Assembly (NCBI GenBank): GCA_009886115.1
Contig: VFJJ01000018.1
Location: 1-64,000, forward strand
Source: Actinomycetota bacterium
GTDB lineage: Bacteria; Actinomycetota; Acidimicrobiia; IMCC26256; VFJJ01
Direction: 5' to 3'
DNA length: 64,000 nucleotides
The notes beneath the pieces were generated by a model that saw only the letters and a list, made by a program, of their open reading frames with translations, did not search any database and was not told the origin of the DNA. The first letter of the stretch is position 1. Every line of letters starts with the position of its first letter. Made by a program: the position numbers and the translations under genes. Of the stretch, positions 6,922 to 61,373 are shown piece after piece.

Positions 6922-8001
6922 CTATTCGCCGCGCTCGCTGCCGCGCAGCTCGGCCCGCCGGAGGACCGCCTCGAGCTGGCTGGCGAGCGTTCCCACGTTG
7001 GCCTCGGCGAACATCGAGTTGTGGTCGCCGGGAGCCTCGATCACCTCCAGCGCGCCGCCGATGAACGGAGTCCATCCGTTGTCGGCGGGGAACGTCGCTC
7101 CGAGACGCTCGGCCTTGAACAGCACCGCCGATCCGTCGTAGCGGGTGAGGTCGAAGCGATCGAGCGCGGCGAGGAACGGCTCGGTGAGATCGACCCCTCC
7201 GGCCGGCTCAGGCCCGCCCTGACCCCGCCAGGCATCGAGTCGGGACGCGACCATGTCGCCGGCGTATCGGGCGGAGTATCGGAGGCCGCGGCTTCTCAGG
7301 TTCTGCCGCAGCGTGCGGAGCTGCTCGCTCCGTGGACGCTCGTTGACCCCGGGGCAGAACGTGTCGAGCAACACGACGAGGTCGACGGCGTCGCCGGTCG
7401 TCGCGAAACGCCGGGCCATCTCGATCGCGACGACGCCGCCACCCGAGAAACCACCGAGCAGGTACGGCCCATTGGGTTGCACCGCTCTGATCGCCCGGCA
7501 GTACCGGGCTGCCATCATCTCGATCGACGGGTCGGGGTGCGTGCCGGGGAGGAGCCCGTGCGCCTGGAGCCCGTAGAACGGGCGGTCGTCGAGGTGGCGC
7601 GCCAGGCGCTGGAACGTGAGGACGTTGCCACCTCGGCCGTGCACGCAGAAGAACGGTCGCCGCTCGCCGCCGCGGCTGACGGGCACCAGGTTCGCCCACG
7701 GCGACGAGGCCGACGTTCCGGGGTGACCGATCGCGTCGGTTGTTGGGTTCTCGAGCTCGGCTTGGACGAACGCGGCGAGCTCGTTCGGGGTGGGCGCCTC
7801 CAGCAGGGCAGACAGCCCGAGCTGAACGTTGAAGGTCTCGGTGATGCGCGTGAAGACCCGGACGGCCTGCATCGACGTGCCCCCGAGGTCGAAGAAGCTG
7901 GCGTCGAGACCGATCGACCCCTGCTCGAGCACGTCGCGCCAGATCTCGAGCATCTGGTCGACGACCGAGGGGCCACCATCGTCTCCCGCGCTCGTCGTCA
8001 T
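6922..8001 (-). CDS. Free-standing acyl/peptidyl carrier protein-thioesterase didomain protein
   Basis: A 359-aa protein. Residues 12-90 are a phosphopantetheine carrier domain with DASFFDLGGTSMQ (attachment Ser43). Residues about 110-359 are an alpha/beta-hydrolase thioesterase of the NRPS type I kind: FFCVHGRGGN oxyanion region, nucleophile elbow GGFSGGG near residue 185, C-terminal His in APGDHNSMF. Such didomains normally end NRPS or PKS chains, yet no adenylation, condensation or ketosynthase domain is in the window. It is divergent from the flippase fusion across a 222-bp gap, so it may prepare or release an acyl group for the surface polymer. That role is inference. Confidence 0.85.
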   Translation of the reverse strand: MTTSAGDDGGPSVVDQMLEIWRDVLEQGSIGLDASFFDLGGTSMQAVRVFTRITETFNVQLGLSALLEAPTPNELAAFVQAELENPTTDAIGHPGTSASSPWANLVPVSRGGERRPFFCVHGRGGNVLTFQRLARHLDDRPFYGLQAHGLLPGTHPDPSIEMMAARYCRAIRAVQPNGPYLLGGFSGGGVVAIEMARRFATTGDAVDLVVLLDTFCPGVNERPRSEQLRTLRQNLRSRGLRYSARYAGDMVASRLDAWRGQGGPEPAGGVDLTEPFLAALDRFDLTRYDGSAVLFKAERLGATFPADNGWTPFIGGALEVIEAPGDHNSMFAEANVGTLASQLEAVLRRAELRGSERGE

Positions 8002-8223: not shown

Positions 8224-11200
8224 ATGGGATTGCGCAACCAGAGCCTTCGGGGCGGCGCGTACCTGGGGGTGCGCGAGGCCTTCGGCATGCTGATCCGCTT
8301 CGGCGGAGCGGTGATCTTCACGCGCGTCATCGGGGCCTCGGAGTTCGGCATCCTGGCCGGCTCCCAGGCCATCCTCTTCGTCCTCACGCTCGTGGCCCAG
8401 ATGGGTGTCGAGGTCTCGATCATCCGCCGTCAGGACGAGCCCGACCAGCGAGCCATCGACGCCGCGTTCTCGCTCGTCGCGGTCAATGGCGCCATCGCCG
8501 TGGCCGTGGGTCTGGTGGGAGCCGTGGTGGCGCTCGGCGTCGGGGTGGGCGGCCATGCCGTCGCCGTGTTCGCGGTGCTCCTCCTGTCGCTGCCCATCAA
8601 CATCATGTGGGCACCGGCCCAGGGCCAGATCGAGCGCAACTTCGGCTTCCGGTCGATGGCCTTCCTCGAGCTCACCGGCGACCTTATCCTCTACTCCGTC
8701 TCGGTCACCCTCGTGTTGGCCGGGATGGGCGTGTGGGGAACGGTCATCGGCGTCTTCGCCTGGCAGACCTGGCTGTTCGTCAGCTCCTACCGGGTCGCAC
8801 GCATCAGGCCCCGCTGGCGTTGGGACCGCGAGGAGATCGCTCGCTACCGGAAGTTCGGACGGGGCTTCAGCCTGGCCGTGGCGGCCGACCGTTCCAAGGA
8901 TCTCGTCAACCCCCTCGTCGTCGGGGCCCTGGCCGGAAGCGCTGCGGTGGGCAACGTCTTCCTGGTGCTGCGCCTGCTCGAGTCGATGGGGTTCGTGTTC
9001 CGGGCCACCTGGCGCCTGTCGCTCGCGGCGCTGAACCGGGTGCGCCACGACATGGACCGCTTCCGCCGGGGCATCGAAGAGGGCATGACCCTGCAGGTGC
9101 TCGTGGTGGGGCCGATCCTGGCTGTCGCCTGTTTCGCCATCGACGAGATCATCCCGTTCGTGTGGGACGACGAATACCCCGAAGCAGCCGCGATCTTCCC
9201 GCTCGTCGCCGTCGCGACCCTGGCGACGGGCGTCACGTCGATGCTCGTCAACGCCCTGTACTCCTTGGGGCGCACCGGTGCCGTGCTGCGAGCCAACCTG
9301 GTTCGGGCCGCGTTCTGTGCCGGGTTCGCCGCGCTCGCCGTCGAGCGCAACGGCGTGACGGGATACGGGGTCGGAGAGATCGCCGGGCTGATCTCCATCG
9401 TGGTGCTCGACGGGGCGCTGCGCCGCGAGCTCGACTTCTCGTACCGCCGCGTGCTGCCGTGGTTCGGCGCGTTCCTCCCCCTGATCGGGGCCACGGCGCT
9501 GCCCCTGGTGTGGCGACCGCTGCTGGCTCTACCGCTCGTCGCCATGCTGACGTGGCCTCGAACCCGCCGAGAGCTCGTCGGGTACGTCCGGACGGTCCTC
9601 GCTTCCCGGATGCCCGGCAGCGCTGATCCCGCTGATCCCGCTGATCCCGCTGATGTCGCTGGGCGCGAGCGTCTCGGCGCCGACCGCCTCGACATGGCGA
9701 CCGTCGACGCCGACGCCTTCGACACCTCCAGCGTGACGAATTGGGCCGAAGTGGTTCCGACCGCTGCCGAGCGCCGAAACGGCCCTGTCATACTCGATGC
9801 AGCGATCGCTGCCGATGTCGCGCGCTCGTCGAACGGCGCGCATCATCCCCATCCCACGGAGGCAACACCGGTGCCGAGTGCGAAGTCACCATCGTCGAGT
9901 CATGCGGCCCGGCCCAGCGTCGACGGTCGCGACGTGATCTTCGTCGCCTGGACGGGTCGCCCGGCGCGCACCCACGAGATCGCGCAGGCCCTGGGTGCCG
10001 AGGCCAAGATCCTGCCCGGCCATCGCACGATGAAGCCGCTGGTGCCCCTGCGGTACCTCTTCCAGGCGATCCAGACGTTGTTCTTCCTCATTCGGCGTCG
10101 CCCCGATGTGGTGCTCGTCCAGAACCCACCGGTGATGGCGGCGGCCGTCGTGTGCTTCTACGGTCGCTTCTCACGGTGCCGGGTGATCCTCGACAGCCAT
10201 CCCGGAGGCTTCGGGGCCCAGGGCGATCGGGTGTCGGCCCGTCTTCAGTGGATGCACCGCTGGGCCGTCCGGCACTCGTCGGGCGTCTTGGTGACCACCC
10301 GAGACTGGGTGCAACTCGTGAACGGCTGGGGCGGTCGGGGCATCGTCGTGCACGAGCCGCCTCCCCACTTCGAGGTCGCGGCCCCGACCGAACGCCCCGA
10401 TCGGGGGCGGGTCCTGTACGTCACGGTGTTCGCCCCCGACGAGCCGCTCGTCGAGGTGCTCGAAGCGGCACGCTCGCTCCCCGACGTCGACTTCGTGGTC
10501 ACGGGCGACCTGCGACGGTGCCCGTCCAAGATCCGTGAGCAGGCGCCCGAGAACGTGGCCTTCGTGGGCTACCTCCGAGGCGACGACTATGTACGGGCGC
10601 TGGCCGATGCCGACATGGTGCTGGCACTCACGAGCGAGCCGACATCGGTGATGCGAGCGGCGTACGAGGCGGTGTACGCGAATCGGCCGCTGCTCGTCTC
10701 CGACTGGCCTGCGCTGCGTGAGACCTTCCCGCTCGCGGTGCCCGTTCGGAACACCGCCGACTCGATCGCCGAGGCGGTCGTCGACACGCTCGACGAGTAC
10801 GACTCACAGTTGATGCTGCTGCGCGAGGCTCGACGCCTCCAGGAGCAGCGCTGGAGTGATCAGCTCGACGACCTTCGTCAGGTGATCCACGCCCCCGAGC
10901 CGATCTCGGCGTTCCGGCGCCGGTCGTTCCTGCGCCGGCAGCCGTTCCTGCGTCGGCGGGCCTGGGTGATCGTGCTGACGGGTCTCCTGGCCTTCGGGAT
11001 GGCCACGCTCCAAGCCGGCAACGAAGTGGTCGACTACACGGCCGAGGCCAGTCTCAACGTGCAGTCGGGGGCGTCCGATGAAGGCCCCGGGCAGGCCTTC
11101 GAGGCCACCAGGCAGGCACTCAACTACGTGACCGTCATCGAACGCGACCAGATCATCCGCACGCACGTGGCCGCGAACATCAACGCCACCGAGTCGACCG

Positions 11201-12096
11201 TCGAAGAGAACCTCGGCATCGCCACCAAGGGCGACACGTCGGTGCTCAAGCTCACGTACACGGCGTCCAACCCCGAGACCGCGCTCCGAGCCGTCGAGCT
11301 CGCTGTCGAGGTGATCACGGCGCAGAACGGCTACGCGACGCCGCCGATCCCGGCCGGCTCGGTGGTGGTCGTCGAGTTCGACCGAACGCCGACCGAGTCG
11401 GGGGGCAAGCTCTTCACCCCGATCAACTCGCTCATCATCGGGCTGTTCCTCGGGCTCGTCCTCGCCGTCATCTGGGAACGCAACGACACCCGGGTCGACA
11501 GCGCCGAGCAGCTCATCGGGCTCGTTCCCGCCCCGGTCTCCGACGCCTCGCTGGTGGGACCGGCGCCGGCGCTGCTGCGGCGCTGGGTCGTCGGGTTCAC
11601 CGGGACCCTGGCCAAGGTGGGTCTCGTGTCGTCACCGCCGGGTCACATGAGCGCGACGGCATGGGTCGCCGACTGGTTGGCCTCGGCGTACCCGGAAATC
11701 TTCCCGGCGCTGGGGAGCCCGTTCTCGTCGCGGGTGGTGCAGGTCGAGCCCCAAGACGCCAGGCCCAAATCGTCGCGAACGCGGTCGACGTCTCGCGAGC
11801 CCCTCGATGTTGAGCTGATCGCGGCCGGGACCGTGACCGGTGGCGAGAACGGCGAGGCTGCAGCCCTCGAGTCGACGTTCCTCGTGCTGGTGGTGCCCAC
11901 GGGTTCCCGTACATCACACGTCACCCGCTCGGTGCGCACCCTGCGCCAGCTCGGCATCGAGGTCGGCTGGACGGTGCTCGCGCCATCGAGCCGGCTCCGC
12001 CGTCGACTGGTGCCTCCGATCGCGCTGCTCCGGGGCCGGACCCGCCTCATGCACGAGCTCGCCGACGATCCCCCTCGTCTGCGCGTGACCGAATGA
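8224..12096 (+). CDS. Three-part fusion: Wzx-type flippase, GT4-like glycosyltransferase, Wzz-like chain-length domain
   Basis: One open frame of 1290 residues. Residues 1-465 have about 12-14 hydrophobic helices and a MATE/Wzx-like opening (RGGAYLGVREAFGMLIRFG), as in lipid-linked oligosaccharide flippases. Residues 465-565 are a low-complexity linker beginning with an ADP tripeptide repeat. Residues 565-890 are a GT-B glycosyltransferase (RRPDVVLVQNPP, late SVMRAAYEAV-YANRPLLVSD donor region). Residues 905-1290 have two helices (about 910-930 and 1065-1085) bracketing an extracytoplasmic segment, as in Wzz/Wzc chain-length regulators, and a soluble tail without an obvious kinase Walker motif. 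The ATG at 8224 is preferred; a GTG at 8200 is possible. These are normally separate genes. Confidence 0.82.
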   Translation: MGLRNQSLRGGAYLGVREAFGMLIRFGGAVIFTRVIGASEFGILAGSQAILFVLTLVAQMGVEVSIIRRQDEPDQRAIDAAFSLVAVNGAIAVAVGLVGAVVALGVGVGGHAVAVFAVLLLSLPINIMWAPAQGQIERNFGFRSMAFLELTGDLILYSVSVTLVLAGMGVWGTVIGVFAWQTWLFVSSYRVARIRPRWRWDREEIARYRKFGRGFSLAVAADRSKDLVNPLVVGALAGSAAVGNVFLVLRLLESMGFVFRATWRLSLAALNRVRHDMDRFRRGIEEGMTLQVLVVGPILAVACFAIDEIIPFVWDDEYPEAAAIFPLVAVATLATGVTSMLVNALYSLGRTGAVLRANLVRAAFCAGFAALAVERNGVTGYGVGEIAGLISIVVLDGALRRELDFSYRRVLPWFGAFLPLIGATALPLVWRPLLALPLVAMLTWPRTRRELVGYVRTVLASRMPGSADPADPADPADVAGRERLGADRLDMATVDADAFDTSSVTNWAEVVPTAAERRNGPVILDAAIAADVARSSNGAHHPHPTEATPVPSAKSPSSSHAARPSVDGRDVIFVAWTGRPARTHEIAQALGAEAKILPGHRTMKPLVPLRYLFQAIQTLFFLIRRRPDVVLVQNPPVMAAAVVCFYGRFSRCRVILDSHPGGFGAQGDRVSARLQWMHRWAVRHSSGVLVTTRDWVQLVNGWGGRGIVVHEPPPHFEVAAPTERPDRGRVLYVTVFAPDEPLVEVLEAARSLPDVDFVVTGDLRRCPSKIREQAPENVAFVGYLRGDDYVRALADADMVLALTSEPTSVMRAAYEAVYANRPLLVSDWPALRETFPLAVPVRNTADSIAEAVVDTLDEYDSQLMLLREARRLQEQRWSDQLDDLRQVIHAPEPISAFRRRSFLRRQPFLRRRAWVIVLTGLLAFGMATLQAGNEVVDYTAEASLNVQSGASDEGPGQAFEATRQALNYVTVIERDQIIRTHVAANINATESTVEENLGIATKGDTSVLKLTYTASNPETALRAVELAVEVITAQNGYATPPIPAGSVVVVEFDRTPTESGGKLFTPINSLIIGLFLGLVLAVIWERNDTRVDSAEQLIGLVPAPVSDASLVGPAPALLRRWVVGFTGTLAKVGLVSSPPGHMSATAWVADWLASAYPEIFPALGSPFSSRVVQVEPQDARPKSSRTRSTSREPLDVELIAAGTVTGGENGEAAALESTFLVLVVPTGSRTSHVTRSVRTLRQLGIEVGWTVLAPSSRLRRRLVPPIALLRGRTRLMHELADDPPRLRVTE
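9622..9657 (+). repeat. 9-bp tandem repeat in the flippase-glycosyltransferase linker
   Basis: Three perfect copies and one degenerate copy of GCTGATCCC. In frame they encode Ala-Asp-Pro repeats at the flippase/linker junction. Copy-number change would alter linker length without shifting the frame. Confidence 0.9.
9858..9873 (+). promoter_or_regulatory. Possible internal ribosome site and GTG start for the glycosyltransferase part
   Basis: GGAGG at 9858-9862 is followed after 8 bases by an in-frame GTG (9871), about 16 codons before recognisable glycosyltransferase sequence begins. It could be the relict start of a once separate gene, or still give a shorter glycosyltransferase-Wzz product alongside the full fusion. 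Confidence 0.45.
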
Positions 12097-12169: not shown

Positions 12170-13657
12170 ATGAGCGTCGCCTGGCCTGGTCCGGCCTTCG
12201 ACGGTCTCGACCAGGACGAGCGCGAGCCGCTTCCGGCGTGGCTGGTGGCCAGCTCGGCGGTCATCGGCGCGGTCCTCGTGGGCCTGGCGAGCGGGTACGG
12301 CTCGGGCGCTGCGGTTGGCGCAGCGCTGCTCGTTGCCGGGGCGCTCTGGCTGGCGGTGCGGCCGACGGTGTGCCTGATGATCCTCGTGGGCGCGGCGGCG
12401 CCCCTGTCGGGTCTACGGCGCGGTTTCCCCGTTCCCCAACTTCGAGCCGGCGAGGCTGCCATGTTGGCGGCCGGCGGGATCCTGGTGGTGCTCGGTCGGC
12501 GCTCGATCCACGCCAAGTGGGCCATCCTCGAGTGGCTGTTCTTCGGCTACGTGGCGGCCACCATCGGCATCGGCTTCTACGCCCTCCGCCAGAGCGGCGA
12601 ATCGGCCTCGGCCGACAGCTTCGGGATCCTGTTGGTGCCGGTGTTCCACCTGTTCCTCTACCTGGCGGTCAGGGTCGCCGCGGGCCGTCCCGGAATGCGC
12701 GAGCGGGGGATCCGGGTGCTGATGCTGAGCAGCATCCCGGTCTCGATCATCTCCATCCTCCAGTACTTCGACATCGCCGGGATGAAGAACCGACTCAGCG
12801 AGTACACCGACCTGGGCCAGTTCTCGACCAACGTCGAGCAGGGCTACGTGGCCCGCGCCACCGGGCCGTTCGCCCACTGGCACCTGCTCGCCGGATTCCT
12901 GTTCCCGATCCTGCTGGTCGCGGTGGCCATCGCGCTCGACAAGGCCTGGCACATCATCTCGCCGACCGCCCTCGGCGTGGTCGCGACGTTCGGCGGCATC
13001 GCCATGGTGCTGACCCTCACGTACACCGCGTTCGTGGGTCTGCTCGTGGGGACGCTGCTCGTGGGGGCCTGGGCCCGCAAGGCCACCGTGATGGCGATGG
13101 TGTTGATGTTGGTGACCGTGGTTGCCGGGTTCGCGTTCTCCGAACAGCTCGCCGGGCGTTTCAGCGACCAATTCTCGGGCGTGGAGTCGGCCGGCGGGAA
13201 CCGGTTCATCCCGAGCACCTTGAACTTCCGGTTCAGCGTGTGGACCGAGCAGTTCCTCCCGGTCATCCTCGAAAAACCCACCGTGGGCTACGGGCCGACG
13301 ACGCCCAAGGACGTCACGTGGGAGTTCACCGAGTCGGTGTACATCACGATGCTGCTGCGCGGCGGGCTGATCCTGCTCGCGATCTTCCTGGCCTACTGGT
13401 TCGCGCTGCTCGCCCGATCGTGGGCGACGCGTAACGACGCCGACCCCGCGGTGCGGATACCGGCTCGGGCGCTCACGGCTTCAGTGATCGTGCTCATCCC
13501 GATGAACGCCGTCTTCCCGTACTACACCTCGCCCGGGCTCCCGCACGTGCTGGCGGTGCTGGCGGGCCTGGCCTTCGCTCCGACGCACGAACGCCTCACG
13601 AAGGCACCTGCTGAGCGCCGCGCCTCCAGCTCCCAGCCCGCCTCGGCGTTGCCCTAG
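12170..13657 (+). CDS. O-antigen polymerase/ligase family membrane protein
   Basis: A 495-aa protein with about 10-12 membrane helices and one large extracytoplasmic loop (about residues 320-390) containing FSVWTEQFLPVILEKPTVGYGP. This GYGP loop is a hallmark of the Wzy/WaaL O-antigen polymerase and ligase family, which joins lipid-linked repeat units or transfers them to an acceptor. It follows the flippase fusion by 73 bp on the same strand, giving flippase, glycosyltransferase, chain-length control and polymerase in two consecutive genes. I chose ATG 12170 over 12149. Polymerase versus ligase cannot be decided from sequence. Confidence 0.82.
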   Translation: MSVAWPGPAFDGLDQDEREPLPAWLVASSAVIGAVLVGLASGYGSGAAVGAALLVAGALWLAVRPTVCLMILVGAAAPLSGLRRGFPVPQLRAGEAAMLAAGGILVVLGRRSIHAKWAILEWLFFGYVAATIGIGFYALRQSGESASADSFGILLVPVFHLFLYLAVRVAAGRPGMRERGIRVLMLSSIPVSIISILQYFDIAGMKNRLSEYTDLGQFSTNVEQGYVARATGPFAHWHLLAGFLFPILLVAVAIALDKAWHIISPTALGVVATFGGIAMVLTLTYTAFVGLLVGTLLVGAWARKATVMAMVLMLVTVVAGFAFSEQLAGRFSDQFSGVESAGGNRFIPSTLNFRFSVWTEQFLPVILEKPTVGYGPTTPKDVTWEFTESVYITMLLRGGLILLAIFLAYWFALLARSWATRNDADPAVRIPARALTASVIVLIPMNAVFPYYTSPGLPHVLAVLAGLAFAPTHERLTKAPAERRASSSQPASALP

Positions 13658-13688: not shown

Positions 13689-14909
13689 CTACACAGCGAA
13701 GTCGGTTGCCCAGAACTGCTCGACGATCGTGCCGTGCTCGTTGAGCGTGACCAGATCGCCGATCGTGAGCGTGTTGGGGTCCGACCAGTCCCAGACGAAC
13801 GCGGTGTAGCCGTTGAAGCCGTCGTCGACCTTGGCGATGAGGTGGGCCACGAGCTCCTCATTCCACAGGGGGACGGGGTCGCCGAGATGGTTGAAGAAGC
13901 CGTACTCGGTCCCCACGATCGGGTACTCGTCGACGTACCGGCCGACGACGTTCTCCCACGACTCGAGCTCGTCGCCGCAGAAACAGGTGTTGAGGTTGGC
14001 ATAGCGATGGTTCGCGAAGGCGATGTTCGGTGCGCCGCCGAGCAGCTCGCCGTCGAGGTCGAGGATCTCGTCGGCGTGCTTCGTCGAGAAGCCCCACGAG
14101 TAGTCGATGGTGTCGGCGATGAGGAGGCCTCGGTATCCGAAGTCGTTGCGGAAGAGCTCGACGGTCTCGGTGGTCGTGTCGATCCACTCGTCCCAGGTCA
14201 CCTCGTGGGGCTCGTTCCATGGCTCGTAGACGACCTGGGTGTTGGCCTCGAACCGCTCGTAAACGTCGCGCATCATGCCGTGCACCGAGCTGGCCTCCTC
14301 GGGCCAGTCGGCTCCGGCTCCGAGGCTGTCCCACCAGCTGATGATGATGAGGAGCCCGACGGCGTTGGCGTCGGCGACGATGGCCTCGAGGCGCTCGAGG
14401 TAGGCGTCCTTGCCGCCGAGCTCGTACACGTCGTTCTCGTAGGTGGCCAGGGCGACCGGCACCCGCAGCGTGTTCACCCCCAGCTCGGCCATGCGGGCAA
14501 AGATGGTCGAGCGCTCGTCGAAGTTCCGGGCCGCGGTGGGTCCGATCCCGTCGTCGGGCGAGCCGTCCGGCTTGGTGTAGAAGGGCAACAGGTACGCGGT
14601 CGCCCCCTTGACCACGAAACGCTTGTCGTCCTGCACGAGCACGTTGACCTCGGTGTGCAGCCTCGCCCCGGACGCGGCTCGGGCCTGAGCGGCGGCGGCG
14701 GACCCCTCGTGGGAGCGATTCCCGTCGTCCCCTCCACCCCCTGACGTGGCAACGACGATCGCCACCACCAGCGCGACCACCAGCGCGCCGGACACCAAGG
14801 CAACGAGGCGCCAGCGGCTCGGCTTTCCCGTCCCCGACTTCTCGGGCGACGACGGAGTCTCCGGCTCCGGCTCCGGCGATGCCGGGGTTTCCGGCGATCC
14901 GGTGGTCAT
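13689..14909 (-). CDS. Membrane-anchored glycoside hydrolase family 5-like enzyme
   Basis: A 406-aa type II membrane protein. The short cytoplasmic tail is Pro/Glu/Ser-rich, the single helix is at about residues 30-50 (LVALVSGALVVALVVAIVVA), and a clan A (beta/alpha)8 hydrolase follows. The acid/base region is VYEPWNEPHEV; the nucleophile region is IVGTEYGFF; ELGVNTLRVPVA matches the early GH5 strand. It is the last gene of the polysaccharide operon and overlaps the acetyltransferase stop by 4 bp. This suggests it trims, edits or releases the polymer made by its neighbours rather than degrading food. Substrate unknown. Confidence 0.82.
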   Translation of the reverse strand: MTTGSPETPASPEPEPETPSSPEKSGTGKPSRWRLVALVSGALVVALVVAIVVATSGGGGDDGNRSHEGSAAAAQARAASGARLHTEVNVLVQDDKRFVVKGATAYLLPFYTKPDGSPDDGIGPTAARNFDERSTIFARMAELGVNTLRVPVALATYENDVYELGGKDAYLERLEAIVADANAVGLLIIISWWDSLGAGADWPEEASSVHGMMRDVYERFEANTQVVYEPWNEPHEVTWDEWIDTTTETVELFRNDFGYRGLLIADTIDYSWGFSTKHADEILDLDGELLGGAPNIAFANHRYANLNTCFCGDELESWENVVGRYVDEYPIVGTEYGFFNHLGDPVPLWNEELVAHLIAKVDDGFNGYTAFVWDWSDPNTLTIGDLVTLNEHGTIVEQFWATDFAV

Positions 14910-15565
14910 CGTCGCCCGGGTTCGTCGAGCCAGGCGTAGGCGTGGTCGTAGATCCCCGCCCCGCACGGCAGGGCGTCGCGCTGGCCGCGGATCTGGGCCG
15001 GGCTGCCGACTGCGATGGCGCCGGCGGGCACGTCGCGGGTGACGACCGATCCGGCGCCGATCAGTGATCCGGCGCCGATGCGGACCCCGGGAAGGATCAC
15101 GCTCCGTGCGCCGATCGCTACGCCGTCCTCGACGATGGCCCCGCCGACGCAGTCGAGGTAGCTCGGGCACGGCGGATGGGGATCGTCGGTGAACACCACA
15201 TGGGGACCGCAGAACACGTCGTCGCCCAGCGTCACCGACGAGAGGAAGCCGCCGGTGTGGATCCGGGTCCGGGCCCCGACGGTGTTGCCGGGCTCGAGGT
15301 GGGCGCCGCTGCCGACCGAGCTGCGGTCACCGATCGTGTTGCCTTCGCGGACCATGGAGCCGTGGCCGATCTGGACGCCCGCTCCGAGGGTCACGCCCTG
15401 GTAGAGCACCGCGTAGGCCCGCACCACCGTGCCCGGTCCGAGGACCAGGGGGCCGGTGTCCCCATCGCGTGTGGGGTGAGCGAGCACACAGGGCCCGAGG
15501 ATCTGGGCCTCGTCGAGGCCGATCACATCGCCGAGGATCTCGACCCCGTTCGGGAGGTTCGTCAC
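14906..15565 (-). CDS. Left-handed beta-helix sugar N-acetyltransferase (WbpD-like)
   Basis: A 219-aa protein built almost wholly of hexapeptide repeats (for example IGHGSM, VGSGAH, IGARSV, IGAGSL), with the catalytic-type segment HTGGFLSSVTLGDDVFCGPHVVF and a short C-terminal tail. It resembles WbpD/WlbB, which acetylates the 3-amino group of a UDP-2-acetamido-3-amino uronic acid. Genes of WbpE and WbpB type lie directly upstream, all with 4-bp overlaps, which strengthens the reading. Confidence 0.82.
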   Translation of the reverse strand: MTNLPNGVEILGDVIGLDEAQILGPCVLAHPTRDGDTGPLVLGPGTVVRAYAVLYQGVTLGAGVQIGHGSMVREGNTIGDRSSVGSGAHLEPGNTVGARTRIHTGGFLSSVTLGDDVFCGPHVVFTDDPHPPCPSYLDCVGGAIVEDGVAIGARSVILPGVRIGAGSLIGAGSVVTRDVPAGAIAVGSPAQIRGQRDALPCGAGIYDHAYAWLDEPGRR

Positions 15566-16584
15566 AACCCCAGTCTCGCGTAGTCGGACACTGTCACCGG
15601 CTCACCGTCGAGGCGCCACGACAAGTCGGCAGCATGGAGGGCCTCGACGACCTTGAGGCCGAACCAGCCGTCGGAGATGTGGACCGTTCCGGTCTCGCAC
15701 GCCTGGAGGAAATGCGAGATCTGTCGGCCCAGGGGCTCGGCCGCGGAGACGTGCGGCACGACCGTGTCGCCGTAGCGGTAGGTGAGCTGGTACTCACCGA
15801 AGTCGGGGCTGTCGGGGATCACGACGCCCTTGTCGTAGACCTTGATCGGCTCGTCGTTCTGCGTGTCGTCGTACACGACCATGCGCTGCTCGCCGACGAT
15901 CGTGAGGTCGCGCACCTTCTTCGGGGCCAACCACGAGACCGTGACCGAGGCGATGATCCCGGACGGGAACTGCATGTTGATGAACGCCACGTCGGGAACG
16001 CCTCCAAGCACCTGGCGTGCCGCCGTCTGCACCGAGACCGGGGTCTCGTTCAAGAGTTGGAAGATGATCGAGAAATCGTGCGGTGCGAGATCCCAGATGA
16101 CATTGGCGTCGTGACGAACCAGTCCGAGGTTCAGTCGAGAAGATGTGACGTAATGGACCTTCCCGAGGTGGCCAGTATTGAGGTAATGGCCCAGCAGATC
16201 GATGCGGGGACTGAACAAGAAGGTGTGGCCGACCATCAGAGCCAGCTGGCGCTCCTCGGCCAGGGCAACCATCTCGCGGGCTTCCTCGACGGTGCCGGCC
16301 ATGGGCTTTTCGACCAACACGTGCCGCCCGGCCCGGAGCGCGGCCTTGGCGATGACCCCATGCGACTCGACGGGTGTCGCGATGATGACCCCCTGCACGT
16401 CGGGATCGGCCAGTGCGTCGTCGAGATCGAGCTTCAGCTCCAGCCCCGGATAGGTGCCAGCCACGTTCGAGAGCCGGTCGACGCTGGCGTCGATGGCGAC
16501 GACGTTCTGCGCCCCCGTGGCGCTCACGAGGTTCCGGAGGATCTTCTGGCCCCAGTAGCCCAGACCGACCATGGCGATCTTCAT
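15562..16584 (-). CDS. Gfo/Idh/MocA-family NAD-dependent sugar dehydrogenase (WbpB-like)
   Basis: A 340-aa oxidoreductase with an N-terminal Rossmann fold (KIAMVGLGYWGQKILRNL), the conserved VEKPMAGTVEEAREM segment carrying the EKP lysine near residue 95, and a C-terminal alpha/beta domain. In diacetamido-uronic acid synthesis WbpB oxidises C3 of UDP-GlcNAcA before transamination. The start at 16584 overlaps the aminotransferase stop by 4 bp; the long upstream extension of the frame is a shadow. The first enzyme of that pathway, UDP-GlcNAc 6-dehydrogenase, is not in this window. Confidence 0.85.
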   Translation of the reverse strand: MKIAMVGLGYWGQKILRNLVSATGAQNVVAIDASVDRLSNVAGTYPGLELKLDLDDALADPDVQGVIIATPVESHGVIAKAALRAGRHVLVEKPMAGTVEEAREMVALAEERQLALMVGHTFLFSPRIDLLGHYLNTGHLGKVHYVTSSRLNLGLVRHDANVIWDLAPHDFSIIFQLLNETPVSVQTAARQVLGGVPDVAFINMQFPSGIIASVTVSWLAPKKVRDLTIVGEQRMVVYDDTQNDEPIKVYDKGVVIPDSPDFGEYQLTYRYGDTVVPHVSAAEPLGRQISHFLQACETGTVHISDGWFGLKVVEALHAADLSWRLDGEPVTVSDYARLGL

Positions 16585-17744
16585 GACGCCTCCTTGATTG
16601 CGCTCGTCAGGACCTGGACGCAGGCCGAGACCTGCGACGGGGTGATGCCGGGGAACAGCGGCAGGGACAGGATGCGATGCGCCAACCGCTCGGAGACGGG
16701 GAACTGTCCGAGACGACCGAGAGCGTCGGCGCCGTCTTGGAGATGCACGGGGACGGGATAGTGGATGGCGGCGCCGACCCCGGCCGCATGGAGGGAGTCG
16801 AGGACCCGGTCGCGGTGCTCGACCTGCACGACCATCAGGTGGTGGACGTGACGCCCCCGGGGATCGATGGTGAACACCTCGGCGCCGTCGACGGAGGCGA
16901 GCTCCTCGTGGTACTGCGCGACGGCGCCATCGCGGCGAACCTGGTCGGCCTCGATGCGCCGCAGCTTCACGGCGAGGAACGCCGCTTGCAGCTCGTCCAT
17001 CCGCTCGTTGAAGCCCATGGAGGAGTGCACGTAACGGCGGACGGAGCCATGGCTGCGGAGCAGCTCGATCTGCTCGGCGATCGCGTGGTCGTTCGTGGTG
17101 ACACCACCGGCGTCGCCGAGCGCCCCCAGGTTCTTGCCGGGATAGAAGCTGAAGCTCGCCGCGCGCCCCCACGCCCCGGCGGCGATGCCGTCGTACGACG
17201 CGCCGATGGCCTGGGCGGCATCCTCGAACAGCATGAGGTCGTGGCGGGCGGCCATCGCCGCCAACTCGGTCATCGGGGCGCACTGGCCGTACAGGTGCAC
17301 GGGCAGGAGGGCCCGTGTGTTGGGCGTGATGGCGGCCTCGACCGCTGCGAGGTCGATGAGCGCGGTACGGGGGTCGACGTCGACGAGCACCGGCGTCGCC
17401 CCGGTGTGGTGCACGCCCTCGGCCGTGGCCCAGAAGGTGTTGGCCGGGATGATCACCTCGTCGCCCGGGCCGATGCCGGCCGCGAGGAGCATCATGATGA
17501 TCGAGCAGGTTCCCGATGCGACGCCGAGGGCGCGTTCGACGCCGACGTATGCCGCGAGATCACGCTCGAACGCTGCGACCTCGGGACCGCTGATGAAGAT
17601 GCTGCTGCGGAAGACCCGGTCGAACGCGCCACGGAGCTCGTCGGCGATCGGCGCGTGGACGATCTCGAGGTCGATCAGCGGGATGGGGTGCGTCAGGGCC
17701 GTGATCATCGAGCCTTCCGGTTCGGTTCTGCTGTCGGTGGTCAC
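16581..17744 (-). CDS. DegT/DnrJ/EryC1/StrS sugar aminotransferase (WbpE-like)
   Basis: A 387-aa PLP enzyme. The PLP lysine is in SFYPGKNLGALGDAG near residue 195, preceded by MLFEDAAQAIGASYDG, both diagnostic of nucleotide-sugar aminotransferases. RYVHSSMGFNERMDELQAAFL is the usual dimer and substrate segment. It would put an amino group on the 3-keto sugar from the WbpB-like enzyme. It overlaps both neighbours by 4 bp. Confidence 0.88.
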   Translation of the reverse strand: MTTDSRTEPEGSMITALTHPIPLIDLEIVHAPIADELRGAFDRVFRSSIFISGPEVAAFERDLAAYVGVERALGVASGTCSIIMMLLAAGIGPGDEVIIPANTFWATAEGVHHTGATPVLVDVDPRTALIDLAAVEAAITPNTRALLPVHLYGQCAPMTELAAMAARHDLMLFEDAAQAIGASYDGIAAGAWGRAASFSFYPGKNLGALGDAGGVTTNDHAIAEQIELLRSHGSVRRYVHSSMGFNERMDELQAAFLAVKLRRIEADQVRRDGAVAQYHEELASVDGAEVFTIDPRGRHVHHLMVVQVEHRDRVLDSLHAAGVGAAIHYPVPVHLQDGADALGRLGQFPVSERLAHRILSLPLFPGITPSQVSACVQVLTSAIKEAS

Positions 17745-18829
17745 GCGGCCCCCCGTTGTCTGAAGACCGCAGCGGGAGTCTTATATATGATCTTGAGGTC
17801 GAGACTGGCTCGCCATTGACGCCAATACGAAATATCGTATTCGACCTGTTGTGCCCAGTCGAGCTCCTGGCGTCCTGAGACTTGAGCCAGCCCTGTGAGC
17901 CCGGGCTTCACCCGCAGGCGCTGCCACATGCGGGCGTCGAACATGGCCGTCTCACGCGGGAGCGAAGGTCGGGGGCCGACGATGCTCATGTCGCCGCGGA
18001 TGACGTTCCAGAGCTGGGGAAGCTCGTCGATCGAGTACTTCCGCAGGATCCGCCCGATGCGCGTGACCCGGGGATCGTCGACGAGCTTGAACATCCCGCT
18101 GTGACGTTCGGCGTCGCCTCTGATCATCGCCGCGACGTAGGCGGCATGTTGGCCCTCGTCGTTGGCGAGACGCATCGTCCGGAGCTTGTAGATCCGGAAC
18201 TGTCGCCCGTCGCGTCCGACGCGTTGCTGGCGGAAGAGGACCGGGCCCGAGTCGTCGAGCTTGATGGCCGCTGCCGCCAGGACGAGGATGGGCGCCGCCA
18301 CGAGGAGGGCGACGCCGGCGACTGCGATGTCGATGACTCGCTTGTAGGCCCGAGCGGCGACGGAGAAGACCGGGGCGAAGGGATCGCGGTCGAGCGCGTC
18401 GGGAGCGGGGTCGACGACGACCACGATCGTGCCGTTACGCAAGACCTCGGGATGCGTGGCGGTCATCTGCCCGAAGGTGTGCGACGTCACGAGGATCGCC
18501 CGCGGGTGATCACCCGTCGACGGCGCCTCGATCTGCCATGGCCACGCTCGAACCGCGGTCGCCTCCGAGACGCCGTCGGCGATCTCGGGCTCGGCGATGA
18601 CCAGTGCCGTCTCGACCCGGAGGTCACGCCGGCTGAACGTGGCCGTCACCGCGATGGCCAGCGCCAACGCCCCCACGAGGACCAGACCAGCCGCTGACCA
18701 CAGGAACCAGGCCGCGAGCACCGCGCACGCGCAGAACGAGAGCATCCCGACGGTGAGAGTGGTCGTTCGACGAGCCTCGGCCCCGAAGGAAGTTCCTCGG
18801 TCGGGCCACGTTCCGTGGTAGGTAGTCAT
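17741..18829 (-). CDS. Undecaprenyl-phosphate sugar phosphotransferase (initiating glycosyltransferase)
   Basis: A 362-aa protein. Two close N-terminal helices (about residues 25-65) are followed by a soluble region, a third helix (VIDIAVAGVALLVAAPILVL) and the bacterial sugar-transferase core: PVLFRQQRVGRDG, FRIYKLRTM, RKYSIDELPQLWNV and GDMSIVGPRPSLP. It loads the first sugar phosphate on undecaprenyl phosphate and so starts repeat-unit assembly. It is first in the operon; the ATG at 18829 has AAGGG about 7 bases upstream and fits better than 18877. It has fewer N-terminal helices than WbaP. Confidence 0.88.
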   Translation of the reverse strand: MTTYHGTWPDRGTSFGAEARRTTTLTVGMLSFCACAVLAAWFLWSAAGLVLVGALALAIAVTATFSRRDLRVETALVIAEPEIADGVSEATAVRAWPWQIEAPSTGDHPRAILVTSHTFGQMTATHPEVLRNGTIVVVVDPAPDALDRDPFAPVFSVAARAYKRVIDIAVAGVALLVAAPILVLAAAAIKLDDSGPVLFRQQRVGRDGRQFRIYKLRTMRLANDEGQHAAYVAAMIRGDAERHSGMFKLVDDPRVTRIGRILRKYSIDELPQLWNVIRGDMSIVGPRPSLPRETAMFDARMWQRLRVKPGLTGLAQVSGRQELDWAQQVEYDISYWRQWRASLDLKIIYKTPAAVFRQRGAA

Positions 18830-21590: not shown

Positions 21591-24254
21591 ATGGTTGATC
21601 AGTCGCCGCTGAGCGCCCGCGACCTCGAGGCGATGGGTCTGTCGGGCTACACCGACATCGTCCAGATCGGCCAGGGCGGCTACGGCGTCGTGCTGGGTGC
21701 CCGTCAGGAGCAGTTCAACCGGACGGTCGCCATCAAGGTGCTCCCGAACTCGCTCTACGACGAGGTGGCCCGCAACCGCCTCACCCGTGAACGCCAGGCG
21801 ATGGGCGTGCTCTCGGGCCATCCGGGCATCGTGACCGTCTACGACACCGGGTACACGACCGACGGCCGGCCCTTCCTGGTCATGGAGTACATGAGCGGCG
21901 GTTCGCTCGCCGACCGGGTCGACATCAGTGGACCGCTGCCGTGGAACGAAGCGGTGTCCATCATGGTGGGCATCGCCGAGGCGGTCGAGGCCGCGCACCG
22001 CGCCGGGGTGCTCCATCGCGACATCAAGCCCGACAACATCCTCGTCTCGGCCTTCGGGGCCTCGAAGCTGACCGACTTCGGGATCGCCTCGGTCGTCGGC
22101 GGACCCGCGACCGCCGCCACGTCGATCACCGCGACGATCGAGCACGCCGCTCCCGAGGTGCTCCAGGGCCAGCGGCCGAGCGAGCGCTCCGACGTCTACG
22201 GCCTGGGCTCGACGCTGTTCGCGATCGTGAACGGGATGGCCGCGTTCCGGCGCCCCACCGACGAGTCGCCGCTGCCCATCCTGACCCGGGCCCTCACCGA
22301 GAACGTGCCCGATCTCCGCCTGCGGGGCCTGCCTGCGCCCATCTGTGGGGTCATCGAGCGATCGATGAGCAAGGACCCGGCTGCCCGTCAAGCGAGCGCA
22401 CTCGGCTTCGCCGAGGACCTCCTGCGGGGTGCACAGGCCTGTGGGCTCGATGTGGGCTCGATGCGCTACGGCAACGTGCGCTCGACGAGCGAGCACGGGC
22501 TCGCGTCGCTCAACGTGACGTCGGTGTTCGTGCCCGGCGCCCACTCCACGACGGGCGCCACCCCCGGCGCAGCCCAGACGGGCGATGTCGGTCCGGGCGG
22601 CTGGGGTGGCCAGTACAACCCCCAGGGCCAGACCGGCTCGTCCCCGCCTCCTCCTCCGGGCGCGCCGGGCGCGCCCGGCCTCCCGGGGGGATCGCCCAAG
22701 AGCGGGTCGAAGCGCTGGTTGATCGCCGCGGTGATCGTCGTGGTCGTGGCGCTGGTCGGCGCCGGGGTGGTGCTCATGCAGAACAACGACGACGACGGCG
22801 CGTCACCTCCGGGGAGTGATGGCACCGAGTCGACCAGCGAGACCGACGCTACGGGTGAGACCGACGCTACGGGTGAGACCGTCACCTCCGACGGCGGCAC
22901 GGTCTCGTCGACCGATCCGACGACGACTGAACCGACAACGACACCCCCGACGGGACCGCAGGTGCAGCTCGCGCTGCCGCCGGCCGAGAGCATGCAGGAG
23001 ATCGCCGCCGGCGAGTACCGGATCGGGTTCGACGCGCCGGGCTCGAACCAGGTGGCCGCCCGGCCCGAGAAGGTCGAGCGGTTCTACATCGACCAGACCG
23101 AGGTCGACATCGGCTCCTACATCCGGTTCCTCAAGGACATCAAGGAGCTCGCGGCCGACAATCTCCCGATCGGGTGGTCGCCGGCTGCTCCGTACGTGCC
23201 CGCGGCGACCCAGGCGATCACCGACTTCAACTTCTTCCCCGTGGTGGGGGTCACCCCCGAGCTGGCGGCGGCGTTCTGCCAGTGGGCCGACAAGCGCCTG
23301 CCCACCGAGATCGAGTGGGAGGTGGCCGCCCGCGGGCCCGAGGGGCTGCTGTATCCGTGGGGTCCCGACCTCGACCCGGCCAACGTCGCCGACACCAATG
23401 GCGGGACGTGGGTGGCCGGCTCGATCGACGGCAACCTGTCGTGGGCCGGCACGTTCGACATGGCGGGCAACGCGTGGGAGTGGGTCGACGCCCCGTACGA
23501 CCTGGTGCCCGAGGGCGAGCACGTCGCCCGGGGCGGGGGAGCCGGGGAGATCGTCGACATGGCCTACCGCCGCCGGGGCACGCCCGACTCGGTGGGCTTC
23601 ATCGGCACCGTGGGGTTCCGCTGCGCGGCCTCAGAGGTTCGGCCGCCCCTCGCGATGAGCGAGACGGCGCTGTACTTCGACGAGTTCACGAACATCCAGA
23701 GTGGCTGGCCCATCGACGAGCCCGTCGGCAACGTGCGCTTCGGCTACCACCGGCCCGACGCCTTCCACCTCCAGGCTGTCGAGCCCAACACGCCGGTACG
23801 GGTCGAGCTGCCCTTCGATGTCCTACCGCCGGTGGGCGACGCCATGGTCGAGACCCGGGCCACCATTTTCACGACCAAGACAACGAACGGGACGTTCCGG
23901 TACGGCTTGGCCCTGCGAGTGCAGCCACCGGATTCCAGCGAGTTCGGCTATCTCGCGTTCACCATCGATCCGCGAGCGGGTCGATGGTCGGTGATCCACC
24001 AGTTGGCGACCGATGCTGTCGAGCTCGACTCGGGTGACACCCCCGTGTTGGGCGGGCTCACCAAGGACGTCTACGACGTGCTGCGGGTCGAGATGCGAGG
24101 GACGTCGAACACGTTCTTCGTGAACGATGTCGAGCTGGCCACGATCGAGTCCCCGTTGGGCCCCGGAGGCATCGGCTTCTTCGTGGAGACGTTCGACGAG
24201 GACCAGGCCCACATCCACTTCGACTACATGGCGGTGGCGGCGCTCGACGGCTGA
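21591..24254 (+). CDS. Receptor Ser/Thr protein kinase with extracellular FGE-like and C-terminal beta-sandwich domains
   Basis: An 887-aa type II membrane kinase. Residues 20-280 are a PknB-like domain (GQGGYGVVLGA loop, VAIKVL lysine, HRDIKPDN near 141, LTDFGIAS near 159). A Pro-rich stretch leads to one helix (about 374-397) and an acidic Thr-rich spacer. Residues 465-680 resemble formylglycine-generating enzyme/SUMF1 domains (ITDFNFFPVVGVT, RLPTEIEWEVAARG, GNAWEWVDAP, GFRCA), but the region holding the two catalytic cysteines reads RGGGAGEIVDMAYRRRG, so no FGE activity is expected; it is more likely a sensor. Residues 690-887 look like a LamG-type beta sandwich. Confidence 0.85.
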   Translation: MVDQSPLSARDLEAMGLSGYTDIVQIGQGGYGVVLGARQEQFNRTVAIKVLPNSLYDEVARNRLTRERQAMGVLSGHPGIVTVYDTGYTTDGRPFLVMEYMSGGSLADRVDISGPLPWNEAVSIMVGIAEAVEAAHRAGVLHRDIKPDNILVSAFGASKLTDFGIASVVGGPATAATSITATIEHAAPEVLQGQRPSERSDVYGLGSTLFAIVNGMAAFRRPTDESPLPILTRALTENVPDLRLRGLPAPICGVIERSMSKDPAARQASALGFAEDLLRGAQACGLDVGSMRYGNVRSTSEHGLASLNVTSVFVPGAHSTTGATPGAAQTGDVGPGGWGGQYNPQGQTGSSPPPPPGAPGAPGLPGGSPKSGSKRWLIAAVIVVVVALVGAGVVLMQNNDDDGASPPGSDGTESTSETDATGETDATGETVTSDGGTVSSTDPTTTEPTTTPPTGPQVQLALPPAESMQEIAAGEYRIGFDAPGSNQVAARPEKVERFYIDQTEVDIGSYIRFLKDIKELAADNLPIGWSPAAPYVPAATQAITDFNFFPVVGVTPELAAAFCQWADKRLPTEIEWEVAARGPEGLLYPWGPDLDPANVADTNGGTWVAGSIDGNLSWAGTFDMAGNAWEWVDAPYDLVPEGEHVARGGGAGEIVDMAYRRRGTPDSVGFIGTVGFRCAASEVRPPLAMSETALYFDEFTNIQSGWPIDEPVGNVRFGYHRPDAFHLQAVEPNTPVRVELPFDVLPPVGDAMVETRATIFTTKTTNGTFRYGLALRVQPPDSSEFGYLAFTIDPRAGRWSVIHQLATDAVELDSGDTPVLGGLTKDVYDVLRVEMRGTSNTFFVNDVELATIESPLGPGGIGFFVETFDEDQAHIHFDYMAVAALDG
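22839..22880 (+). repeat. 18-bp tandem repeat in the kinase extracellular spacer
   Basis: GAGACCGACGCTACGGGT occurs at 22839-22856 and 22857-22874, with the first six bases of a third copy following. It encodes ETDATG repeats just outside the membrane helix; length change would keep the frame. Confidence 0.9.
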
Positions 24255-58764: not shown

Positions 58765-58946
58765 CGTTGTCTCCTCGATGTCGTGGCTCGATGGCCCGAC
58801 TGCGGGCTCGACCCGTCGAGGCCTCGAACTGCCCGGACGGGGAGGTTCCTGACCGCGAGCTCGGAGCTTTCGCACCGATGCTCGCCGCGAGCATCGAGCG
58901 CCCGCAAGGCGTGGGTCTACGGTGGGGTGCGAGTCGAGGAGGCGCT

Positions 58947-61373
58947 GTGGACGTGGGCTCGGAGAGGCACAGGATCCCGGGTATCGCCGGCTTGGTCGAG
59001 ATCGGCCGTGGCGGATTCGGTCGCGTGTACCGGGCCACACAGACCGAGCTTGGTCGTTCGGTGGCCGTGAAGGTGCTCGCGCCTGCCATCGACGAGCGCT
59101 CGCGATCACGGTTCACCCGCGAGCGCCGCTCGCTGTCCGCGCTGTCGGGTCATCCCAACGTCGTCACCGTGTTCGACTCCGGCTTCACCGACAACGACGA
59201 GCCGTACCTGATCATGGAGCTGATGGAGGGCGGCTCCCTCGCCGAGCGGCTTGGCGACATAGGGCCGCTCGACTGGACCATCGCGGTGCCTCTCGTGGTG
59301 GCGGTTGGTGGAGCGCTGGAGTCGGCGCACCGTCGCGACGTGCTGCACCGCGACGTGAAGCCGGCCAACGTTCTCGTCGACCGGTTCGGCACTCCGAAGC
59401 TCGGCGACTTCGGCATCGCATCGGTCAGCTCGGGTGACACCACCGGGACCGGCGCCGTCACTGCCAGCCTCTCGCACGCTGCGCCCGAGGTGATCTCCGG
59501 CCATCGGGCGTCGGCGGCGAGTGACCAGTATTCGCTGGCATCCACGCTGTACGAGTTGTTGCACGGCGCCCCGGCGTTCGTGCGCCCGACCGACGAGTCG
59601 GTGCTGCCACTGGTGGCCCGGGTGGCGGCGGAGCCGGTGCCCGATCTTCGACCGATCGGGGTTCCCGACGGCGTGTGCATCGTCCTCGAGCGAGCCATGG
59701 CCAAGACGCCGGATGAGCGGTTCTCCGACGTTCTGGCGTTCATCGGGGCTCTCGGTGACGCGGCCGGGAACGCCGGTCAACCCCGGCCTAGCTTCGTCGT
59801 CGAGGCTCCAGGGCTGGGCTCGACGCCCGATCCGGGCCTGGTAGTTCCCGCGCTGGCGTTGCTGGGCTCCGAGGCCGAGGTCCTCGAAGCCGACCGTGCC
59901 GTCGGCGTCACCAACGCGGGTGTCGCCGACTCGGGTGTCGCCGGCGTGCCCCTCGGCGCGCCGTTGCTCTCGGGCGCCAAGGCCGATCCCGGGGTACCCC
60001 CGGGGTCGGAGACGACCGCGATACCGAAGGCCTCGTCGGTGGACGTCGGCCACGACGATGCCACGGGGGGTGTGCCGAGTTCGCGCTCGCGACGGCGATT
60101 GGCCGTGGCCGCCGGTCTGGCGGCGGTCGCGATCGCCGCCGCTGCGCTGGTGATCGATCTCGGCGGCGAGGGCCCCGGTGCCCCAGACGACATCGTCGCC
60201 GCGGAATCGGAGTCCTCGGTCGATGGCCCTGGTGTTGAGAATGGCGATGGCGCTGGCCCGGTGAGTGGTGAACCGAAGAACTCCGACTCGGCGCCTGCGT
60301 CCGGCTCGGGTTCCACAGCGGTGCTCGAGGAGGTCTCGGGCACGGGGGCCTCGACCGGACGTTCGTCGACCGCGACCAGCTCGGACGGGGCTTCGCAGGC
60401 TACCGACTCGAGGAACGTCTCGCCGACGGTTGGTACGGCCCGGGGTCCGGGCTCGCTCTCGACGCGGGTCGAGGGTTCGAGCCCGGCCAGCTCACCGTCC
60501 GGTGGCACCGTGACCTCAGGCCCGCCGGGCTCGGCCACGATCCCCGCGACCGCGACCTCATCGGCCGCCCAGGGCAGCGCTTCGCCTTCTCCGTCTCCCT
60601 CCCCTTCGCCTTCTCCGTCTCCGTCTCCGTCTCCGTCTTCGTCTTCGTCTCCGTCTTCGTCTTCGTCTTCGTCTCCGTCTTCGTCTTCGTCTTCGTCTTC
60701 GTCTTCGTCTCCTGCTGCGCCCACGCTGCCGCCTCCTCCCCCGCCGCCTCCTCCGGCCACAACGACCACGCAGCCCGTCACGGCTCCGGGAGCAGTGACG
60801 AACGCCAGTGCGCAGAACCCGACGCAGTCGACCTTCAACGGACCCGTCTCGGTTTCGCTCTCGTGGTCGGCCCCCACGAGCACCGGCGGCGTCGCCCTCA
60901 GGCCCTACGTCGTCACGGTCGAGACGGTGTCGAACGCATCGGGCGCCGTGCTCACCTCCAACACGGCCGAGGTCAGCGGCACCTCGACCTCGGTCACGGT
61001 CAACGTGGGGAACAATTCCCGGGGCCGCTACACCGTCAGAGCCGTCAACGTGGCCGGGCTCAGCGGTCCGACGACCACCCTCCAGGGCCGTATTCCGGTC
61101 GTCGCCCCGCTGAACAACTTCGCCACGTCGAGCGCGTACTTCCTGGTCCGGGCCGTCGGCATGCCGACCGCCACGATCCCGTATTACGAGACCTCCGGCC
61201 CCTATGGCCCCAACGACTCGGTGACGGTTTCGCAGCGACCGGCACCGGGGACGACGTTCGCCGCCGGCACGACCGTGACGCTGGTCATCTGGGACCGAGC
61301 CAGCTGCGAGGCCGATGGCGACCAGCCCAACAACTACTGCTACAAGCCGCCGCCGCCCGGAAGCACGTTCTGA
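58947..61373 (+). CDS. Receptor Ser/Thr protein kinase with Ser/Pro repeat, FN3 and PASTA-like domains
   Basis: An 808-aa type II membrane kinase. Residues 12-270 are the kinase (GRGGFGRVYRA, VAVKVLAPAI, HRDVKPAN near 134, LGDFGIAS near 152). One helix is at about 380-405. A Ser/Thr/Gly-rich spacer leads into Ser-Pro and poly-Ser repeats (about 547-590) and a poly-Pro run. Residues 612-715 look like a fibronectin type III domain, and 720-795 end like a PASTA domain (VSQRPAPGTTFAAGTTVTLVIW). GTG 58947 has GAGGAG 5 bases upstream. Its layout parallels the kinase at 21591-24254 with a different sensor, perhaps for cell-wall or surface polymer. Confidence 0.85.
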   Translation: MDVGSERHRIPGIAGLVEIGRGGFGRVYRATQTELGRSVAVKVLAPAIDERSRSRFTRERRSLSALSGHPNVVTVFDSGFTDNDEPYLIMELMEGGSLAERLGDIGPLDWTIAVPLVVAVGGALESAHRRDVLHRDVKPANVLVDRFGTPKLGDFGIASVSSGDTTGTGAVTASLSHAAPEVISGHRASAASDQYSLASTLYELLHGAPAFVRPTDESVLPLVARVAAEPVPDLRPIGVPDGVCIVLERAMAKTPDERFSDVLAFIGALGDAAGNAGQPRPSFVVEAPGLGSTPDPGLVVPALALLGSEAEVLEADRAVGVTNAGVADSGVAGVPLGAPLLSGAKADPGVPPGSETTAIPKASSVDVGHDDATGGVPSSRSRRRLAVAAGLAAVAIAAAALVIDLGGEGPGAPDDIVAAESESSVDGPGVENGDGAGPVSGEPKNSDSAPASGSGSTAVLEEVSGTGASTGRSSTATSSDGASQATDSRNVSPTVGTARGPGSLSTRVEGSSPASSPSGGTVTSGPPGSATIPATATSSAAQGSASPSPSPSPSPSPSPSPSPSSSSSPSSSSSSSPSSSSSSSSSSSPAAPTLPPPPPPPPPATTTTQPVTAPGAVTNASAQNPTQSTFNGPVSVSLSWSAPTSTGGVALRPYVVTVETVSNASGAVLTSNTAEVSGTSTSVTVNVGNNSRGRYTVRAVNVAGLSGPTTTLQGRIPVVAPLNNFATSSAYFLVRAVGMPTATIPYYETSGPYGPNDSVTVSQRPAPGTTFAAGTTVTLVIWDRASCEADGDQPNNYCYKPPPPGSTF
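60581..60713 (+). repeat. TCTCCG/TCTTCG hexamer-type repeat coding for Ser-Pro and poly-Ser
   Basis: About 130 bp of near-perfect TCNCCG and TCTTCG units, all multiples of 3, encode (SP)n then S-rich residues outside the membrane. The opposite strand also stays open across it as an Asp/Glu run, which is an artefact of the repeat. Length polymorphism is likely and would not shift the frame. Confidence 0.92.

Follow-up and report, generated by a model that had tools for sequence, protein, structure and literature searches.

The 1290-codon frame at positions 8224 to 12096 (plus strand) of the window, the 64,000-nucleotide stretch of actinomycetotal DNA analysed here, is on balance probably a genuine, lineage-specific gene fusion in a Wzx/Wzy-type polysaccharide locus, perhaps with a second internal start. 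Translation of this frame gives a polypeptide of 1290 aa, and no stop interrupts the frame across either of its two linkers, as the preliminary description had it. A flippase, a glycosyltransferase (GT) and a Wzz-like co-polymerase are joined in this order, with conserved domains flanking each of the two joins. It is a new arrangement of known parts, found in a single draft genome, in which the GT-Wzz join is solid and the flippase-GT join looser.

The identities of the three parts, proposed earlier from motif reading, agree with the results of Pfam, of a profile built for this work and of fold comparison, and the domain search recovered each part. Residues 1-460 (8224-9603, plus strand) are a MOP/Wzx-type flippase with a Polysacc_synt_3 (PF13440) match at residues 31-321 (1.2e-28, 100.6 bits for a cut-off of 23) and a match to PF01943 (3.3e-11). 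This part matches at 33-35% the flippases of three relatives: G103 and G198 (MAGs TL1-3.bin48 and FK2.bin64) and G199 (MAG Acidothermaceae LS_ISSM_2_bin.15). Simple hydropathy merges several of its helices, the family expectation being 12-14 transmembrane (TM) segments with cytosolic ends.

Residues 567-885 (9922-10878, plus strand) form a GT-B glycosyltransferase that matches separate GTs at 46-48%. Pfam GT matches cover residues 568-705 and 745-871 with values of 7e-10 to 8e-7, over the cut-off. The GT-B fold is found in the predicted model, whose pLDDT is mostly 80-97 across the GT, and a fold search gives the GT4 enzymes BshA, MshA and HepE (E about 1e-12) and also PimA. The region departs from the retaining-GT4 motif E-x7-E, reading EPTSVMRAAYE with the glutamates two residues too far apart. 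Five K/R residues stand ahead of the first TM helix (TM1) of the co-polymerase and none behind it. By the positive-inside rule this distribution gives the GT a cytosolic location, the proper place for such an enzyme.

The third part, residues 909-1104 (10948-11535, plus strand), has two TM helices around an external part of about 130 residues. It scores 48.6 bits from TM1 to TM2 against our own profile, built from six actinobacterial Wzz domains, and weakly against TIGR01006 (18 bits, below cut-off). Its predicted model, of low overall confidence (58.5), matches Wzc and KpsE in Foldseek with E of 1e-8 to 1e-4. The Pfam Wzz family PF02706 has no match in the fusion genome or in G103. From profile and fold, the third part is a divergent Wzz-like co-polymerase rather than a PF02706 member. 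It shares TM1, external part and TM2, with profile and fold matches, with Wzc (a PCP with tyrosine kinase) and actinobacterial Wzz-BY-kinase proteins; it differs from them by the N-terminal GT and by a tail without significant BY-kinase match. This cytosolic C-terminal tail comprises residues 1105-1290 (11536-12093, plus strand). By eye it suggests a degenerate BY-kinase, but the profile does not support this: against a BY-kinase profile the tail scores like its own shuffles, and the search gave no kinase domain with Walker A in these residues.

The polymerase gene lies where it had been described, its ATG at 12170 standing 73 bp past the fusion stop. This Wzy-type polymerase (12170-13657, plus strand) scores 29.0 bits for Wzy_C, slightly under the cut-off of 31.7, and has 31% identity, over 480 aa, with the Wzy portion of G103 protein P0002, which clears that cut-off with 43.1 bits. 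Further downstream the minus strand codes for a GH5-like hydrolase, a hexapeptide acyltransferase, a GFO/IDH/MocA oxidoreductase and a DegT aminotransferase (13689-17708), followed by an initiating sugar-phosphate transferase (Bac_transf, 5.9e-66; 17741-18745). The presence of the initiating transferase and of sugar-modifying enzymes among these genes identifies a polysaccharide locus. As in the Wzx/Wzy-dependent pathway, flippase, GT, co-polymerase, polymerase and initiating transferase are complete at one locus; the difference is that Wzx, GTs, Wzz and Wzy are separate in that pathway, whereas one frame carries flippase, GT and co-polymerase in the window. On the other side, divergent to the fusion gene, 6922-8001 (minus strand) codes for a protein with a phosphopantetheine carrier and a thioesterase domain.

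At the GT-Wzz join TM1 follows the end of the GT after only about 20 residues. GC3 is 0.96 in residues 886-912 and the codon signature is full across the join. No strong Shine-Dalgarno (SD) plus start was found there, and a 15-bp tandem repeat (x1.9) lies at 10910-10938 (plus strand). This join looks like an integrated fusion. G199 has the same order GT-Wzz-Wzy as the window, but its GT and Wzz are separate genes whose stop and start overlap as ATGA (L035 3426-3429), and its flippase lies on another contig in a frame running off the contig end. The 17 Wzz loci inspected, chosen mostly for long open frames, showed no GT-Wzz fusion; the N-terminal parts shown among them look like spurious or low-complexity reading frames.

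The flippase-GT join is less simple. In a frame-by-frame score the coding signal of the ORF frame lasts to about 9780, past the flippase fold, and the following 40 or so codons lose it. The first segment is a disordered flippase tail (9604-9780, plus strand), in which the codon signature favours the ORF frame at 9630-9780. It contains a perfect 9-bp tandem repeat (x3.8, 9621-9654, plus strand) coding for Ala-Asp-Pro. Every unit of the repeat has a TGA in frame 0 (9624, 9633, 9642 and 9651), stops interrupt frame 2 at 9548, 9734 and 9935, and the ORF frame has none over 9500-9950. An assembly or consensus error that masks a stop or frameshift at this join is improbable. The genome is indeed a draft of 5.45 Mb in 224 contigs, with a tandem repeat at the join, and the GT is a separate gene in all three relatives; however, with a unit of 9 bp a wrong copy number would keep the frame, and the coding signal does not change frame across the repeat.

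The second segment, from 9780 to about 9890 (plus strand), is a stop-free, spacer-like stretch without coding signature. A score as low is found in 0.36% of 40-codon coding windows and in 2% of weakly hydrophobic ones. A first hint from low GC3, that the linker is non-coding throughout, was weakened by a baseline taken without the repeat, in which 26 of the 172 weakly hydrophobic windows reach a GC3 as low as that of the linker, so that disordered coding stretches can be low, and by the frame score upstream. Homology of the linker to the G199 flippase tail was not significant, 1148 of 2000 shuffles being as good.

A Shine-Dalgarno sequence, GGAGG (9858-9862, plus strand), is followed after 8 nt by an in-frame GTG (9871). 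The predicted second product from this GTG is a GT-Wzz protein of 741 aa (9871-12096, plus strand). Its start fits the N-termini of the separate GTs in G103, G198 and G199: it lies 23 residues ahead of the conserved GT start, inside the range of the separate enzymes. A strong SD precedes 14% of gene starts (23/161), for about 0.05 expected by chance per 90 internal codons; as a sign of an internal start the SD thus gives modest support rather than proof, with a likelihood ratio between roughly 3 and 8. It is unlikely that a dedicated three-in-one protein is the sole product and that the internal SD and GTG occur by chance. This would agree with the open ORF frame and its coding signal in the flippase tail, with the similarly low GC3 of disordered coding stretches elsewhere in the genome and with the other flippase fusions maintained in G103 and G198, but the SD and GTG sit at the relatives' GT gene starts, the codon signature is lost around them, and the triple fusion is not conserved.

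Neighbouring genes of this genome are often close to fusing. Among same-strand pairs less than 400 bp apart in 341 kb, 22 of 135 (16%) are in frame and stop-free bar the stop of the upstream gene; one mutation could therefore fuse many of them, and a recent accidental join is plausible. A recent, near-neutral stop loss, leaving flippase and GT-Wzz to act as two proteins with a readthrough that has no selected role, would also fit the spacer-like stretch with its SD and the perfect repeat beside the join. We nevertheless hold it to be quite unlikely, because a C-terminal extension of 741 aa on the flippase would probably not go unnoticed by the cell and because the codon signature of the flippase tail persists well beyond the fold.

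The same fusion was searched for in related genomes, and its parts, but not the triple fusion, were found in relatives. The search covered 198 relatives, 58 genomes sampling the order, class and phylum, viral contigs and plasmids, and gave no further case of the triple fusion. A contig scan with the GT profile, following a scan that gave none, found the same gene set in only three other genomes, G103, G198 and G199. Absence from relatives means that nothing yet shows selection keeping the triple fusion. No precedent for a flippase-GT-Wzz fusion appeared in the open-access literature searched, whose coverage is incomplete. Six of the inspected flippase relatives with long open frames have clearly spurious extensions; since such frames are often artefacts in this GC-rich group, an open frame on its own counts for little as evidence. 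In a genome of the same order, a flippase is followed in frame by a putative acyltransferase-3 (OafA-like) domain recognised by eye (L004 1156-4176, plus strand), with a repeat-rich linker, GAIAGAIAGANAGPIAG..., between them.

G103 and G198 have flippase, Wzz, Wzy and GT homologous to those of the window, and in them, too, the flippase belongs to a fusion. Unlike in the window, the flippase comes last, after Wzy and an aminoglycoside-2''-adenylyltransferase (ANT(2''))-like nucleotidyltransferase (NTase; PF10706, 1.2e-23), in single frames of 1291 and 1346 codons (L031 5358-9233 and L068 1391-5431, minus strand), while the GT is separate. Between the two genomes Wzy is 83% identical, the NTase 57%, the flippase 78% and the linkers 46%. 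This divergence of parts and linkers indicates that the frame was kept open while the sequences changed. The Wzz of these genomes (L031 9237-11561, minus strand) differs from that of the window in its N-terminal region. This region of about 430 residues has a motif, CQHxGAxxCLYTLTW, that by eye resembles V4R-type sensor domains, and has no Pfam match. A gene for a PAS-GGDEF protein adjoins the L031 Wzz.

We favour for the window a genuine fusion with an internal start. Comparison shows GT and Wzz as separate genes in relatives; in the window they are joined stop-free with full coding signature. The upstream flippase frame is also without a stop and runs in phase into the GT over a spacer that retains a ribosome-binding site. 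If the assembly is right, initiation at 8224 must yield the fusion, as no stop intervenes. Ribosomes starting there would make the 1290-aa protein and some starting at GTG 9871 would make GT-Wzz alone. The co-polymerase part could then form a membrane ring gathering cytosolic GTs and some flippases round the separate Wzy, and such a ring would tie sugar addition to flipping and to length control. With the shorter product, the ring could form with some subunits lacking a flippase, which would ease packing. In the complex of Wzy with Wzz, an octamer of Wzz is paired with about one Wzy, and genetic data led to the proposal of a Wzx-Wzy-Wzz complex (PMC10030265). A co-polymerase in which every subunit bears a flippase and a GT would agree with this model.

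The single scaffold for sugar addition, translocation and length control put forward in the preliminary description holds in part: the GT-Wzz join is integrated, but the passage from flippase to GT crosses the signature-less codons with an intact SD and GTG, and no relative has all three parts together. A working three-in-one system, with a co-polymerase ring that bears GTs and flippases of its own, an internal start that provides flippase-free subunits and one gene that sets the number of flippases and transferases per polymerase, is possible but doubtful. Flippase contacts in a Wzx-Wzy-Wzz complex are hard to show, and a natural flippase-GT-co-polymerase fusion would be direct evidence of parts working side by side. 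The window fusion and the Wzy-NTase-flippase fusion of two genomes suggest that export parts of this group are prone to joining.

Two other regions of the window were noted. ORF 21591-24254 (plus strand) codes for a fusion of a Ser/Thr protein kinase with a sulfatase-modifying-factor (FGE) domain. The predicted 860-aa gene at 58791-61373 has an unusually low GC3 and contains a long imperfect 6/12-bp repeat (TCTCCG/TCTTCG) at 60580-60712.
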